The position numbers and the translations under genes are program-made. Under the pieces are notes generated by a model. The model was given only the letters and a program-made list of their open reading frames with translations, was not told the DNA's origin and ran no database searches. 64,000 nucleotides of DNA, from contig JACJGO010000001.1 in the NCBI GenBank assembly GCA_014163555.1, forward strand, positions 372,001 to 436,000. Direction: 5' to 3'. The stretch is from Flavisolibacter longurius. Its GTDB lineage: Bacteria > Bacteroidota > Bacteroidia > Chitinophagales > Chitinophagaceae. Shown here in pieces: positions 57,395-62,468 of this stretch (positions are counted from its first letter, which is position 1; each line of letters begins with the position of its first letter).

Positions 57395-57961
57395 TCAGGG
57401 GTTTAATCGCGGCTTCCAGGGCACTTCTTCGGCCCCTAATAGCTTTGCAACATAGCGGGCCAGCGTAAAAAGGTAATCGCTCAGCCGGTTGAGGTATTGA
57501 ATTATTTTTTCATCTATGAAAAGATCGTTCATCTGCATGTTTACAGCCAATCGTTCGGCACGGCGACAAACACAGCGTACAATATGAATAGATGATACAA
57601 TGGGATGCCCTCCAGGAAGGACAAACGATTTCATCGGCGGCAGTGCCTCCGTCATGGCATCAATGCGATTTTCAAGAAAAGCTATGTCGTCAGGCAACAG
57701 GTCGGGCAATTTCATTTTAGGCTCTTTCTCGCCGTCTGTTGCCAATGCAGAACCAATGGTAAAAAGACGGTCCTGAATTTCTCTTAACTCACCGTTTAAT
57801 TTCTGGTTTTGTAATTGATCATTGATGTTCCCGATCCAGGAGTTTAATTCATCTACCGTGCCATAGGTTTCAATGCGTATGTCGTTCTTAGGCACCTTGG
57901 TTCCGCCAATCAAAGCAGTAGCACCTTTATCACCTGTTTTTGTATAAATCTTAAATGCCAT
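57395..57961 (-). CDS. ATP:cob(I)alamin adenosyltransferase, PduO type
   Basis: This enzyme makes adenosylcobalamin from cob(I)alamin and ATP. It is 188 residues from the ATG at 57961. It starts with KIYTKTGDKGATALIGG and has the active-site segment YGTVDELNSWIG and the later VRCVCRRAERLAV. The earlier in-frame codons up to 58000 are not family sequence. No other B12 genes are nearby. Confidence 0.94.
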   Translation of the reverse strand: MAFKIYTKTGDKGATALIGGTKVPKNDIRIETYGTVDELNSWIGNINDQLQNQKLNGELREIQDRLFTIGSALATDGEKEPKMKLPDLLPDDIAFLENRIDAMTEALPPMKSFVLPGGHPIVSSIHIVRCVCRRAERLAVNMQMNDLFIDEKIIQYLNRLSDYLFTLARYVAKLLGAEEVPWKPRLNP

Positions 57962-58170
57962 TTCGTATCGTTTATGTGAGGATTGCAGAGAATGTATCAC
58001 AGTTTGCTGGAAGAAATTAGCGGCTCAAACAAAGCAGTAATAAGAGCATGCTTATGCCAATTCAACTTTTCCGAAACGGTGATAGGGTTTCCTGTAACGC
58101 TAAACTAACGAACAAATAATGACCAGTAAAGTTTGTATAGGAAGCAGTTGTTATTTTCTGTGCGGTATTC

Positions 58171-58821
58171 TTAATCGACAAGGTTATTCTTCACGGCAAA
58201 AAATACAAGGCCAGCCGTATTCTTACTGCCAAAGCGTTCCATTAATCGATCTTTAATGGCTTCAACTGTCCGGGGGCTGATATCCATTTTCTGTGCAATT
58301 TCCTGCGCTGTAAACTCCATGCAAATAAACCGCAACACATCTCTTTCTTTGTCACTGATGGTTATCTCGCTGTTGAGAGAAGGAATGGCCTTTTGTTTTG
58401 AATGGGCTTTTTTGATCAGGATGCGGTTGACAAAATTATTGAGGTAATAACCCTTCTCGAAAACATCCATAATGGCCTTGCGGATTTCCTGCGGTTCAGC
58501 ATTCTTCAGCAGGTAGCCGTTGGCTCCATTTTCCATGAGGTGCGAAACAAATCGCTCATCCTCATACATGCTCAGTACCAGCACGAACATATTCGGGTAT
58601 TGCTTGCTGACAATTTTTGTAGTTTCAATCCCGTCTTTTTGCGGCATACGCAAATCCATCAGAACCACATCCGGTGCCGCCTCGGCCAGGCCAGCCAGCA
58701 ATTCATCTCCGTTCTCCGCCTCCAGTACAAACTTTATGTTCGTATACGGACGAAGAGAGAGAATAACACCTTTTCGAAAAATTTTGTGGTCATCGGCAAT
58801 TGCCACTTTAATGACATTCAT
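58171..58821 (-). CDS. NarL/FixJ-type response regulator
   Basis: This 216-residue two-domain regulator has a receiver domain with phosphorylated Asp56 in DVVLMDLRMPQ and acidic pocket Asp10/Asp11, plus a C-terminal LuxR helix-turn-helix (about residues 145-210; AQEIAQKMDISPRTVEAIKD). It is the last gene of a minus-strand group with a histidine kinase (24 bases upstream), a seven-helix membrane protein and a small peptide ORF. The regulator at 61052 is a clear paralogue. Confidence 0.95.
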   Translation of the reverse strand: MNVIKVAIADDHKIFRKGVILSLRPYTNIKFVLEAENGDELLAGLAEAAPDVVLMDLRMPQKDGIETTKIVSKQYPNMFVLVLSMYEDERFVSHLMENGANGYLLKNAEPQEIRKAIMDVFEKGYYLNNFVNRILIKKAHSKQKAIPSLNSEITISDKERDVLRFICMEFTAQEIAQKMDISPRTVEAIKDRLMERFGSKNTAGLVFFAVKNNLVD

Positions 58822-58845
58822 CGGAAATCAGATTTCACTTTAAAA

Positions 58846-59691
58846 TTAAGAATTGTAAAGCATCTCCTCGGGCACGTCTTCACGGGGCACTTCAATCGTA
58901 ACTTTAAAATAGGTTTGTGAAACATCTTTTTCAAAGTGAATCTTTCCGTGTAAAACCCGCAAACGGCTGGAGATATTTTTTAACCCCAGTCCACTCTTGC
59001 TTTTATTTAATTTCTCAAAATCACTTTGAACAAGTCCACGACCATCATGATGAATACGGATATAACAATTATCGTTTTGAAAATTCTGCGTCAAATGTAT
59101 AAAGCTGGAGCCACTGTGTTTTAAAATATTATTCACCAACTCCTGCACAACACGAAAAATGATGAGTTCCTTCTCCTGTTTAAGGCGCTCTTTATAATCG
59201 TGAAAGCGACTGCTGGCATTGATGGCGCCTGAACCGCTGATTTTTTGAAACAGGTCATTCACTGCCGATTCCAGACCAAAATTTTTCAGGGTTGGCGGCA
59301 TCAGGCTGTGGCTGATGTTGCGGATCAGTTGAATGGTGTCGTCGAGAATCTGGCGAGCCTGGAAGATGGATTGCAACTGTGTGGCTTTGTCCATGTTCAC
59401 CAGGTTTTCATTCAGGTACAACCGGGCTGTGGCCAGTAACGGGCCGGCATCATCGTGCAAATCCGCAGCCAGGCGCTGACGCTCTTCTTCCTGCAGACGA
59501 ATAGAGGCATTCAACAAAATCTTTTGCTGCTTCTTTTCCATTTCCTGCAGGCGAAGCTGAAAACGGATGACCTTTCGTTGGTGGAAGATGATAAAAAGAA
59601 TCAGACCAATGGTGAGGATAAGCATGCCCAAAGTGCCTAAAAATAGCACGAGTGATATTGGACTATCGATATTGGATTGTAAGAGATACAT
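58846..59691 (-). CDS. Sensor histidine kinase (HisKA_3 type) without a sensor domain
   Basis: This 281-residue kinase has one N-terminal helix (about residues 13-37), a coiled segment and a HisKA_3 dimerisation domain with phosphorylated His79 in LAADLHDDAGPLL. A HATPase domain follows, with N-box QELVNNILKHSG and G-box GRGLVQS / SGLGLKNISSRL. It has no periplasmic or PAS sensor domain, so the membrane protein encoded 10 bases upstream is the likely input. The partner regulator is the next gene. Confidence 0.94.
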   Translation of the reverse strand: MYLLQSNIDSPISLVLFLGTLGMLILTIGLILFIIFHQRKVIRFQLRLQEMEKKQQKILLNASIRLQEEERQRLAADLHDDAGPLLATARLYLNENLVNMDKATQLQSIFQARQILDDTIQLIRNISHSLMPPTLKNFGLESAVNDLFQKISGSGAINASSRFHDYKERLKQEKELIIFRVVQELVNNILKHSGSSFIHLTQNFQNDNCYIRIHHDGRGLVQSDFEKLNKSKSGLGLKNISSRLRVLHGKIHFEKDVSQTYFKVTIEVPREDVPEEMLYNS

Positions 59692-59701
59692 TTTTATAGG
59701 G

Positions 59702-60328
59702 TTAGTTTAGGCTGCTAAGTTCGAAGTCGTTAGGCGGAATTTTACGAGTTGGTTTGGAATTTACAATAACAGCAATTGTAAAAAATACATTCTTTAGAAA
59801 CCCCATAATATTTGTCAATCCCCAATATTTATGAAGCTCTTTGCTCGAGAGAGTTGATGAAAACAGATAGACAAAAAATGAGCCTGAAAGATATATAACC
59901 ATACCAATAACAACCCAAAACGGAAATGTACTATAAATGTACAATGTCGTTGTATCGTTTGTTCTTTCGTATAAATAGTAGTAAGAAAAAACAAGGATAA
60001 TTATTGTTTCGACACCAATAGGAATCGAATCTACAAGCTTTGTATTATCGGTAAAGAATGGATAAATAATATTAAACAGAATAATAGCTACGCCAACAAT
60101 TGCAATGGACTTTTTTACACTTTGGCGGTCTGTTTGGACATACAGAAAACTGAAAAATGCAATACATTCTACTATTGTATAAGAGACATACAATACATAG
60201 CTATACGGATTATTAAAAAGTATAAAATTGATTATTATACTTAAAATCGAATAGTAAAAAAGTATCCGCAGTCCAATTTCGGAATAAGAACTTTTCCAAT
60301 AATAGATTATACAGAATATTGGAAGCAA
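59702..60328 (-). CDS. Seven-helix membrane protein, likely sensor partner of the kinase
   Basis: This protein of 208 residues or more is almost entirely membrane helices (for example VLYVSYTIVECIAFFSFLYV and FPFWVVIGMVIYLSGSFFVY), with no enzyme motif. It is AT-rich. The only standard start codon is a TTG at 60328, but the frame is open upstream to about 60412. The 13 codons before the TTG add a hydrophobic stretch (ENLFYFLDVFSY) that would complete a seventh helix, so the true N-terminus may be longer and overlap the peptide terminator. Its place before a sensorless kinase suggests a signal-receiving role. Confidence 0.75.
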   Translation of the reverse strand: MLPIFCIIYYWKSSYSEIGLRILFYYSILSIIINFILFNNPYSYVLYVSYTIVECIAFFSFLYVQTDRQSVKKSIAIVGVAIILFNIIYPFFTDNTKLVDSIPIGVETIIILVFSYYYLYERTNDTTTLYIYSTFPFWVVIGMVIYLSGSFFVYLFSSTLSSKELHKYWGLTNIMGFLKNVFFTIAVIVNSKPTRKIPPNDFELSSLN

Positions 60329-60351
60329 GTACGAGAAGACATCCAGAAAAT

Positions 60352-60401
60352 AAAAAAGGTTTTCTATAGTTTTGGTTTTTGGCCAAATATAGAAAACCTT
60401 T
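60352..60401 (-). terminator. Terminator or attenuator between the peptide ORF and the membrane-protein gene
   Basis: AAAGGTTTTCTATA (60355-60368) and its exact complement TATAGAAAACCTTT (60388-60401) form a perfect 14-bp stem with a 19-base loop. On the minus strand it runs into TTTTTTATTTT. It begins 25 bases after the peptide stop codon and just before, or within, the start of the membrane-protein gene. Confidence 0.85.
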
Positions 60402-60426
60402 GGAAAATTTTACAACGATTTAGAAA

Positions 60427-60516
60427 TTAAAATTCCCACCATGTTGCTGCTTCATCGCCGCCGCTTCCCAGTCCACCGGGAGGGAGTGATCTGAAGATTT
60501 TTGAAGTTGGTACCAT
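60427..60516 (-). CDS. Putative 29-residue peptide gene
   Basis: An ATG-to-TAA frame of 29 codons encodes a peptide opening MVPTSKIFRSLPPGG and closing GDEAATWWEF. The coding bases are clearly richer in G and C than the flanking AT-rich DNA, and a strong terminator follows closely. The peptide has no signal sequence; it has a Lys/Arg-containing head, a Gly-rich centre (PPGG, LGSGG) and an acidic-aromatic end. The layout suggests a secreted or processed signalling peptide or a modified-peptide precursor. The function is inference, and homologues have not been checked. Confidence 0.5.
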   Translation of the reverse strand: MVPTSKIFRSLPPGGLGSGGDEAATWWEF

Positions 60517-60726
60517 ATCAGTAAGTTTTTGTACTGTAAATATGGTCAGCGAATTTTTCGAATACAATACCATACAAATACCCTATAAATAATCATTTGT
60601 TTTAATAAGACAGGCATAGCAAGTATTTGCGTAGGAAAACTCTGGAGGCTTACGAAGGAAAATCGAGTGTTTTTGCGCAACATAAACAGTAATTTTACGC
60701 AGCAATTTTGGAGAAAAATTCTTGCT

Positions 60727-60745
60727 TTTTCAAATTTGCAATAGT
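60727..60745. repeat. 19-bp sequence shared with 11111-11129 (copy 2)
   Basis: TTTTCAAATTTGCAATAGT is identical to the copy at 11111-11129. It lies about 210 bases upstream of the peptide ORF and about 310 bases before the divergent regulator gene. Confidence 0.5.
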
Positions 60746-61012
60746 GGAATGGATCGATTAAAACCCTTTACGGGCCTACATTTGAGCAGAATAATCAGGT
60801 TAGGTAAAAACCCTTATACAGTTAAGGTACATACATTTTCAATACCATAAGAAAGGCTTTTTAACAGGCTTCGCATTTTCAAAATTGAACACGCGAAATT
60901 CCTATCATACTAACGTATATCTACGGTCGAATTCCCGTAGCCTTTCGATGAACTATGCGTGAACATCGGTGAAATACTTTTACGTCCTCTATGCAGTAGT
61001 TGAAAAATCGAT

Positions 61013-61020
61013 TAGCTTTG
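61013..61020 (+). promoter_or_regulatory. -7 promoter box of the second response regulator
   Basis: TAGCTTTG matches TAnnTTTG 31 bases before the ATG at 61052. Confidence 0.6.
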
Positions 61021-61051
61021 CGCAACTGCTAAACAAGCAAAACCAATTTCC

Positions 61052-61708
61052 ATGAATACCCAGCTTATAAAAGTGGCCATCGCTGATGATCATAAAATTT
61101 TTCGCGATGGCATCAAAATGGCTCTCACTGGCCGCGATCAACTCAAATTTTTATGGGAAGCTGAAGACGGCAAAGATCTGATGCATAAGATTCAGCTCAA
61201 ACAACCCGATGTTCTTTTGATGGATCTTCGGATGCCGGAACTGGATGGTGTTAACGCTATCAACATGATCCGGAAAGAATATGAAGCGGTTAAGGTCATT
61301 GTGCTTACTATGTACGACGATCAGGAGATGATCACCAAGATGATGGAGATGGGAGCCAATGCCTATTTAACCAAAACATCTGACCCCGAAGAAATTTACA
61401 AAGCCATCCTCGCCTGCATGAGTGATGATTTTTACTTCAATGACCTGGTGAATAAAGCTGTGTTGATGCGTTTGCAACACAAAAAAAACGTACGCCAATA
61501 CTATCCTGCACCAGTTAAGTTTTCAGATAAAGAATTGCGCATTTTGAAAAGCATTGCCGAGGACAAAACAACCGAGGAAATTTCGAAAGATGTATTCCTG
61601 AGTCCCCGCACCATTGAAACCATTCGGCAGAACATGAAACAGAAAGTGGGTGCGAAAACCATTGCCGGTCTGGTGATGTACGCAATGCGTAACCGTTTAA
61701 TCGATTGA
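61052..61708 (+). CDS. NarL/FixJ-type response regulator (paralogue)
   Basis: This 218-residue regulator has the same layout as the one at 58171: a KVAIADDHKIFR start, phosphorylated Asp58 in DVLLMDLRMPE, and a LuxR helix-turn-helix (TEEISKDVFLSPRTIETIRQ). No kinase gene is adjacent on its own strand, so it may be served by the kinase at 58846 or work as a second output. It is followed 4 bases later by a methyltransferase gene. Confidence 0.95.
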   Translation: MNTQLIKVAIADDHKIFRDGIKMALTGRDQLKFLWEAEDGKDLMHKIQLKQPDVLLMDLRMPELDGVNAINMIRKEYEAVKVIVLTMYDDQEMITKMMEMGANAYLTKTSDPEEIYKAILACMSDDFYFNDLVNKAVLMRLQHKKNVRQYYPAPVKFSDKELRILKSIAEDKTTEEISKDVFLSPRTIETIRQNMKQKVGAKTIAGLVMYAMRNRLID

Positions 61709-61712
61709 AAAA

Positions 61713-62468
61713 TTGACTTCGAAAGAAAACAATATTAACGACAGTTTTTTCAGCGGACATTATAAAGAGGTCTGGCGCAAACTCATTCCACCCGGACTTT
61801 CAGAGGCCGAATGTTCATTTATAGAAGACGTTGCGAACCTGAAGCAAGAAGACGCTGTTCTTGATCTGATGTGTGGGTATGGTCGCCATGCATTGGAGTT
61901 GGGTCGGCGGGGTTACCACGTAACCGCTATTGACAACCTGCAGGCTTATACAGATGAAATCAATGAAATGGCTGCTACTGAAAAGCTACCAGTAAAAGCC
62001 ATGACCAGTGGTGCGCTGGAGGTTTCGCTGGAGCAAACTTTCAAGGCAGCCATCTGCATGGGCAACAGCTTTGCTTTCTTTAACAGTGAAGATGCAGCTG
62101 CCATACTTCAAAAAATTGCTTCTCATTTAACCGCCTGTGGTACCCTTATTCTGAACACATGGATGATTGCAGAAATTGCCATCAAACATTTCCAGGAAAG
62201 AGAATGGTATTACGTAGAAGATTATAAATATTTATTGGATTACCAGTATCATTTTTCACCCAACCGCATTGAGTCGGAACATACACTGATTGCACCAGAT
62301 GGATTAGTAGAAGTGATCAAAGGTGTTGACTACATTTTTACACTACAGGAACTGGAAGCGATGCTGCAAACGGCGGGTCTGAAAATGAAAAGCATTTACA
62401 GCACTCCACGCAAGAAGCCTTTTCGAATGGGCGATAACAAAGCGTATATCGTTATCGAAAAAAACTGA
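61713..62468 (+). CDS. Class I SAM-dependent methyltransferase
   Basis: This 251-residue protein has the SAM motif AVLDLMCGYGRHALELGRRGYHV, followed by TAIDNLQAY and later Rossmann strands (GTLILNTWM). The start is a TTG at 61713, four bases after the regulator stop, since no ATG precedes the SAM motif. The substrate is unknown. The tight spacing suggests co-transcription with the regulator. Confidence 0.85.
   Translation: MTSKENNINDSFFSGHYKEVWRKLIPPGLSEAECSFIEDVANLKQEDAVLDLMCGYGRHALELGRRGYHVTAIDNLQAYTDEINEMAATEKLPVKAMTSGALEVSLEQTFKAAICMGNSFAFFNSEDAAAILQKIASHLTACGTLILNTWMIAEIAIKHFQEREWYYVEDYKYLLDYQYHFSPNRIESEHTLIAPDGLVEVIKGVDYIFTLQELEAMLQTAGLKMKSIYSTPRKKPFRMGDNKAYIVIEKN

Follow-up and report, generated by a model that had tools for sequence, protein, structure and literature searches.

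Organization of the locus

The locus described here lies in a 64,000-nucleotide (nt) stretch of the genome of the soil bacterium Flavisolibacter longurius (assembly GCA_014163555.1, contig JACJGO010000001.1, positions 372,001 to 436,000; hereafter the window, to which all coordinates refer). It comprises a 29-codon open reading frame (ORF) for a peptide (PEP), a hairpin, and genes for a seven-helix membrane protein (MEM), a histidine kinase (HK) and two response regulators (RR1 and RR2). A preliminary description of this DNA had proposed a peptide-linked two-component system, and all of these elements were located at the coordinates it had given (Table 1). On the minus strand, PEP is followed after 25 nt by the hairpin, while the gaps between MEM and HK (10 nt) and between HK and RR1 (24 nt) bear out the tight spacing that had been reported for these three genes. 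In HK, only HisKA_3 (PF07730, 29.2 bits vs a cut-off of 24) and HATPase_c (PF02518, 39.6 vs 26.4) exceeded the Pfam cut-offs and no further domain did so, in agreement with the suggestion of a kinase with one helix and no sensor domain. The two regulators, described as paralogs transcribed in opposite directions, indeed both contain a receiver and a GerE domain above the cut-offs and are 40% identical. HK and both regulators form a NarL-type two-component system.

Table 1. Features of the locus, in window coordinates
Feature	Position	Strand	Evidence or remark
PEP, 29-codon peptide gene (very probable); product ends WWEF	60427..60516	-	equivalent short ORFs upstream of MEM in relatives
TTACTG directly before the peptide ATG	60519..60524	-	in 25/32 short-form loci, counted by eye
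CATATTTAC element 5′ of the peptide gene; many relatives have a CAATTTTTAC-like version	60536..60544	-	candidate atypical promoter or regulator site
Hairpin (14 + 5 bp) then T-run, probable terminator of the peptide transcript	60355..60401	-	3′ arm contains the inferred MEM start
TATATTTG, matches the Bacteroidota sigma-A -7 box TAnnTTTG	60384..60391	-	predicted operon transcript start ~60379
ATA, inferred MEM start codon	60365..60367	-	start-column alignment
MEM, seven-helix membrane protein, fast-evolving, candidate receptor	59702..60367	-	AlphaFold2 model, alignment, identity rates
HK, one N-terminal helix + HisKA_3 + HATPase_c	58846..59691	-	no sensor domain found
RR1, receiver + GerE	58171..58821	-	domain search
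RR2, receiver + GerE, divergent from the peptide	61052..61708	+	domain search; 40% identical to RR1

Among the 18 genomes of the source genus as grouped here, a close HK ortholog (at least 74% identity) was present in 16, and the two genomes without it are 78% and 84% complete. At E <= 1e-75, HK orthologs were found in 39 of 298 genomes of the order, all of them Chitinophagaceae, and each of these 39 had a single ortholog at that threshold. One genome of the genus (G200) contains the locus twice (L083 on C16 and L088 on C18; locus and genome numbers are labels of this analysis), the peptide and the MEM protein differing between the copies, one of which is cut by a contig end; this reflects either a duplication or contamination of the assembly.

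The probable peptide gene and its conservation

The product of the 29-codon ORF is MVPTSKIFRSLPPGGLGSGGDEAATWWEF. Its frame is open further to an ATG at 60573 (48 residues), but the shorter start is supported by the relatives, including L073 with 72% identity. An ORF of this kind, beginning 76-113 nt before the MEM frame, was recognized by eye in 28 of 36 loci (16 from the genus and 20 further family loci), for example MVPTTKIFRAMPPGGLGGGVVEETTWWEF (L073), MVPTKKIMRSVPPVGDEPIWWEQN (L075) and MTKKVFRAVPPIEWPTTPSWWEF (L077). Seven others contain instead a longer protein, which we refer to as the long form, and the remaining one (L082), cut by a contig end, reads as a long-form tail. The reading frame, whose loss in relatives the preliminary description had named as grounds for rejection, was thus kept rather than lost.

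To place these counts in the wider family, loci L109-L188 were taken as the best 80 of a larger set obtained in a scan with the HK alignment. Six of these had too little upstream DNA and the MEM frame was present in 73 of the other 74; the upstream regions tested for a peptide number 73 (the window and 72 others). An ORF of 15-30 codons with a tryptophan among its last five residues was present in 36 of the 73, four of which are merely the ends of long forms, compared with a mean of 2.4 and a maximum of 8 in 60 dinucleotide-shuffled sets and with 2/73 on the reverse strand. One or other form, either a peptide of 15-30 residues or a protein of 118-136 residues with a similar aromatic tail, was found in 62/73 Chitinophagaceae loci (L145, long, and L183, short, were added by eye; L159 is doubtful and stands outside the short-form set). 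The peptides of the 32 short-form loci have a mean charge of +2.9 in their N-terminal half and -3.3 in their C-terminal half, and 22 of them have tryptophan as the third residue from the end, while the short ORF of L074 is kept without any tryptophan.

The 29-codon ORF is very probably a gene. The alternative that it is a chance frame in a region where only DNA elements are conserved might draw on the outcome of tblastn over 195 family genomes, which, apart from the source genome, gave only weak matches; yet the 36 ORFs observed against 2.4 expected and the long forms that occupy the same place reduce its probability almost to nothing. These tblastn matches came from 18 other genomes at E <= 1 (0.035 to 0.86), and the eleven places viewed in context (L003-L011, L021 and L022) were judged to be chance overlaps. 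Three loci without the usual peptide (L181, L184 and L185) contain ORFs of 17-20 codons upstream of MEM that resemble each other (M-x-QLFINHK...) and are perhaps another form of ligand, or merely conserved DNA.

Long forms and tail proteins across the phylum

The long form, collected from 28 family loci, is a protein of 118-136 residues with a variable tail that was modeled at low confidence (predicted local distance difference test score, pLDDT, of 72 for the whole model); a structure search with its fold gave no match. A profile detected the long-form domain in 30 of the 80 family loci, with no match among the 32 of the short-form set. The HK tree (a quick tree, support 70, with 60 of 74 rows labeled) shows a single change between short and long form, and there was no sign of exchange of the two forms between lineages. 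Neither the peptide nor the long form nor MEM matched a family in Pfam or NCBIfam.

Across the phylum sample, the long-form profile matched 20 of 296 phylum genomes, giving a set of 27 loci (L217 and L220-L245; a few overlap). In 22 of the 27, a frame that matches the MEM profile (E <= 4e-3) comes next after the long-form gene; the match is weak in L217, L235 and L239, is by hydropathy only in L224 and is lacking in L236. A kinase lies inside the 3 kb examined in 19 of the 27. In L240 the order is long form, MEM, long form, MEM and kinase, consecutively. Tandem copies of the MEM gene were seen in L240, L228, L234, L242, L250, L253 and L274 (L234 and L253 are from the same genome).

The MEM profile itself matched 31 of 247 phylum genomes. 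Of 30 loci, 25 have an upstream protein of 104-250 residues with a proline- or cysteine-type tail (CPPxC, PPY, NLWP and similar); 22 of these 25 are outside the Chitinophagaceae and nine were also reached by the long-form search. The window and L246 have a short peptide, whereas L248, L253 and L265 have no tail protein directly upstream, in the case of L253 because another membrane gene sits there. The pattern CP-x(1-4)-C, sought in the 40 C-terminal residues, occurred in 15/25 tail proteins vs 2/829 other ORFs, one of which is a long form. Signal-like N-termini were found by a hydropathy rule in 10/25, and by eye six of these ten have a lipobox-like cysteine (L255, L258, L269, L272, L273 and L274). 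Since tail proteins and long forms recur upstream of MEM, in tandem in L240, the tail and MEM behave as a pair, and from these comparisons the window peptide looks like a tail without its carrier.

The source genome has two further MEM-kinase-regulator operons, each after a small protein with a Pro/Cys tail: L217 (C18), a long form with the tail CPPTCPPDEEENP and a weak match to the MEM profile, and L218 (C21), an ORF of 88 residues that ends in GCPKPPCSTDDEGEGDAI 19 nt before the MEM frame.

The seven-helix protein and its divergence with the peptide

The AlphaFold2 model of MEM, built from 72 aligned sequences, reads as seven helices (pLDDT 93.1), the first of them kinked into three DSSP pieces. 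This agrees with the seven helices that had been predicted. Neither the window protein nor any of four relatives scored above the cut-off of a Pfam or NCBIfam family. F165 is invariant in the alignment and E67, F150, W151, Y159, F164, K192 and N193 are nearly so; the loop charges favor an outside N-terminus. The best Foldseek matches in the PDB were rhodopsin (opsin) and G-protein-coupled receptors (GPCRs), at best with E 0.095 and a template modeling (TM) score of 0.53, which is below significance, and neither MEM nor the long form had sequence relatives in the PDB at E <= 1.

MEM evolves much faster than the genes downstream of it. Across 14 of the 16 genus loci (two incomplete loci were omitted), identity to the window was 72-98% for HK and 77-99.5% for RR1 vs 28-59% for MEM; for RR2 it was 71-98% where an ortholog was present (11 loci) and only 39% in the other three, and for the methyltransferase gene next to RR2 it was 49-76% in the same 11. 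Between the window and L073, the rate of nonsynonymous change (dN) was 0.016 for HK, 0.002 for RR1, 0.020 for RR2, 0.326 for MEM and 0.174 for the methyltransferase, with synonymous change (dS) near saturation at 1.4-2.8. These contrasts in identity and dN indicate that the kinase and regulators are unusually fixed and MEM unusually free. Moreover, after removal of HK similarity, the similarity of the peptides was correlated with that of MEM over the 32 short-form loci (partial r 0.57; 0/2000 permutations as high), while the converse partial correlation, with HK, was 0.23.

Such paired divergence of peptide and MEM, and the two copies in G200 with their different peptides and MEM proteins, would also be compatible with a bacteriocin and its immunity factor under two-component control. 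We consider this very improbable, given the single HK ortholog in all 39 matching genomes of the order, the single change between short and long forms, the fixed operon with the kinase, and the lack of any transporter gene seen there. Another alternative is envelope surveillance, in which MEM, at the inner membrane, would read the tail of an exported and often lipid-anchored protein, somewhat in the way that the Rcs system monitors RcsF, and the window peptide would be a reduced relative of such a protein. The six lipoprotein-like upstream proteins and the NarL-type regulators point in this direction, but no anchor or export signal is evident in the window peptide and a housekeeping stress sensor would not be expected to diverge as fast as the peptide and MEM do, so that we rate this alternative as quite unlikely.

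The hairpin, the probable operon promoter and the inferred start of MEM

The hairpin in the window has an outer stem of 14 base pairs (bp) and an inner stem of 5 bp and is followed by a T-run. A generic terminator scan, which seeks G+C-rich stems, omitted it, and a sigma-70 scan was uninformative here. When the short-form loci other than L128, L132 and L134 were aligned (29 of 32, with 28 distinct sequences), 92.8% of the cells were paired and 18 were changed on both sides, 15 of them at one pair, compared with at most 8 in slid controls; the covariation score was 0.142 vs at most 0.064. The number of pairs with a change on both sides (two) does not exceed that in the slid controls. The conserved hairpin and T-run are probably the intrinsic terminator of the peptide transcript.

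The motif TAnnTTTG was found 0-30 nt before the inferred MEM start in 72 of 74 loci (mean 3.4 and maximum 9 in 100 shuffled sets), at a distance of 14-19 nt in 60/72 and 13-21 nt in 66/72, and loci with a different hairpin sequence retain it; of the two loci without it, L134 is probably misaligned at the start column. In Flavobacterium psychrophilum, the sigma-A box occupies -12 to -5 (PMC9723704). On this spacing, a transcript from the box in the window would begin near 60379, without the 5′ arm of the hairpin, and have a leader of ~12 nt. Because the promoter box sits in the 5′ arm, the operon could be transcribed without the terminator.

The preliminary description had suggested that peptide transcription and operon expression may be coupled by attenuation, and this proposal found no support. 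As in trpL, ribosome pausing at Trp codons would set termination of the operon at the hairpin, and the W or WW near the peptide end, the terminator-like hairpin after it and then the operon are what such a leader would look like. On the other hand, the 3′ arm was paired with P >= 0.87 in 31 of 32 folded transcripts from the peptide to the MEM start (0.16 in L134), so that no competing antiterminator structure is visible; in many relatives the peptide contains just one Trp, and in L074 it lacks this residue; a protein of 118-136 residues occupies the same position in 28 loci; and the internal promoter box could bypass the hairpin. Attenuation is, in our estimate, very unlikely. Since the 5′ arm of the terminator itself contains the box, two separate transcription units are the simplest reading, and from this arrangement the peptide and the operon look like separate transcripts, although expression of the operon through read-through of the terminator may be a route of coupling.

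The inferred start of MEM is itself unusual. No ATG was found near it in the window. The TTG at 60328 falls inside the first helix; the ATA at 60365-60367 is the likelier start. In the start column of the 74 aligned rows, ATA occurred 41 times, ATT 8, ATC 4 and ATG once, the rest being other codons or gaps. Between the upstream stop and this column, 42 of 73 loci have no in-frame ATG, GTG or TTG, and in 22 of these 42 the next such codon is at least 26 codons downstream, beyond the first helix. The other 31 have a canonical codon, often the TTG of the box itself, and this TTG would lie outside any transcript initiated from the box. With canonical starts missing or often outside the box transcript, non-AUG initiation seems hard to avoid: translation of MEM apparently begins within the hairpin's 3′ arm at a codon other than AUG, in most cases AUA.

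None of the 32 short-form loci has TAnnTTTG in the interval 10-60 nt ahead of the peptide ATG, and none of the 28 long-form loci has it within 70 nt upstream of that form; this argues against a housekeeping promoter for the peptide. That the CAATTTTTAC-like element or TTACTG is the target of a regulator of the locus is speculation. Several loci (L110, L112, L113, L117, L155 and others) have a palindrome roughly 25-40 nt before the peptide ATG whose sequence varies between species while its symmetry is kept, for example CAAATCGATTTG, GGAATATTCC and TCAAATTAATTTGA. In L126, L133, L140 and L156, an inverted repeat (GGAGGTT ... AACCTC) precedes the ATG of the long form.

A candidate ligand-receptor-kinase pathway

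Taken together, the data lead us to favor, with a probability of roughly 0.6, the interpretation that the seven-helix protein is a separate receptor whose ligand or regulatory partner is the peptide or tail, and that this receptor controls the sensorless kinase. In this scheme, the small gene product would be dedicated to the receptor; the receptor would control the membrane-bound HK, which has no sensor of its own; and HK would phosphorylate RR1 and perhaps RR2. The ligand would be a peptide of 15-29 residues with a basic front and an acidic end, usually with tryptophan, in the group of the window, the flexible tail of a protein of 118-136 residues in sister genera, and elsewhere in the Bacteroidota a tail of the Pro/Cys type on proteins of various kinds, part of which have export signals. 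Divergence would be shared by ligand and receptor, with the kinase and regulators remaining constant. The peptide would be made from its own transcript, ended by the terminator hairpin, and the receptor-kinase-regulator operon would start from the TAnnTTTG promoter within that hairpin and be translated from a non-AUG codon. The peptide-linked two-component system of the preliminary description is upheld by synteny and by the conserved frame, while its suggestion that the peptide is a ligand remains an inference, to which co-variation, tandem pairs and exported relatives lend support.

Several observations weigh against this interpretation. Neither form was found by the criteria used in 11/73 loci (L146, L147, L174, L176, L177, L180-L182 and L184-L186), mostly those with more diverged kinases, and the family loci are only the best-matching part of a larger set. 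The co-variation of peptide and MEM may be inflated by ancestry that HK distance misses, and MEM shows no clustering of variable positions in its presumed outer third (2.47 v 2.33 bits, p 0.26). The broad definition of a tail was chosen after viewing the sequences, and it fits 25/25 tail proteins but also 46/829 control ORFs. By eye, no Sec-type signal or membrane helix is evident in the short peptides; the hydropathy rule assigns no signal to 15 of the 25 tail proteins from the phylum; and no exporter or protease gene was seen in the conserved block.

The last three points, together with the long forms of the Chitinophagaceae, in which no signal sequence is evident by eye, would also fit a small intracellular regulator of the receptor-kinase complex rather than a cell-to-cell signal, comparable to the connector peptides MgrB and SafA. 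The signal-like N-termini of ten phylum upstream proteins, six with a lipobox-like cysteine, tell against this, as does the nature of the peptides, which are charged and not membrane-spanning, and we regard such a role as unlikely, if worth keeping in mind. Relatives that look exported speak for an outside location of the ligand, and the short peptides, with no signal evident, call for caution. That the peptide is a diffusible pheromone can be proposed only tentatively. Equally tentative is the broader notion of a signaling class spanning the Bacteroidota, in which tails or free peptides would act on stand-alone seven-helix receptors and through these on a sensorless kinase, a peptide pheromone system with its receptor outside the kinase and, in this family, with a promoter within the peptide terminator and a conserved non-AUG start.

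Comparison with known systems

Agr, Fsr and Com are the peptide quorum-sensing systems of Gram-positive bacteria, and the present locus resembles them in that a small gene for a peptide accompanies those for a polytopic membrane protein, a kinase and a regulator, and in the joint divergence of peptide and receptor. It differs in that the receptor candidate is a separate gene and not the N-terminus of the kinase, the kinase is of the HisKA_3 type, and no peptidase or exporter gene was seen. Specifically, MEM (the window protein and four relatives) matched no AgrB-type peptidase, nor any other Pfam or NCBIfam family, above the cut-offs. With systems of the NarL/UhpB type it shares the HisKA_3 kinase and GerE regulators, but here the kinase is sensorless with one helix, and sensing is apparently left to a separate seven-helix protein and a ligand gene. 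The Rcs system (RcsF, IgaA) recalls the phylum relatives, in which an exported and often lipoprotein-like protein precedes a membrane regulator and a NarL-type kinase; the window, however, has a bare peptide, and in the domain searches on which this comparison draws, MEM and the long form matched no Pfam family. In view of the E value of 0.095 and a TM score of ~0.5, we claim no membership of the rhodopsin/GPCR fold for MEM despite its being the best structural match. The trpL attenuator likewise has a Trp-bearing short ORF followed by a terminator-like hairpin, but differs in the features set out above: here no antiterminator is visible, there is an internal promoter box, and Trp is single or missing in relatives.

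We know of no established peptide pheromone system in the Bacteroidota. Among the matches listed from the open literature, outside which lie most subscription papers and bioRxiv preprints, no such system, no CPPYC tails in this context and no AUA starts in these genes were described. The locus gives future tests named species, defined peptide sequences and a receptor candidate that goes with them, and its peptide, long form and seven-helix protein, families that match none in Pfam or NCBIfam, could explain how a sensorless kinase senses. The conserved apparent AUA initiation is a case that gene finders would tend to miss.

Neighboring genes

By domain search, the locus is flanked by ordinary neighbors, a cobalamin adenosyltransferase (57395-58000) and the methyltransferase (61713-62468), the latter adjoining RR2 in 11 of the 14 genus loci examined.

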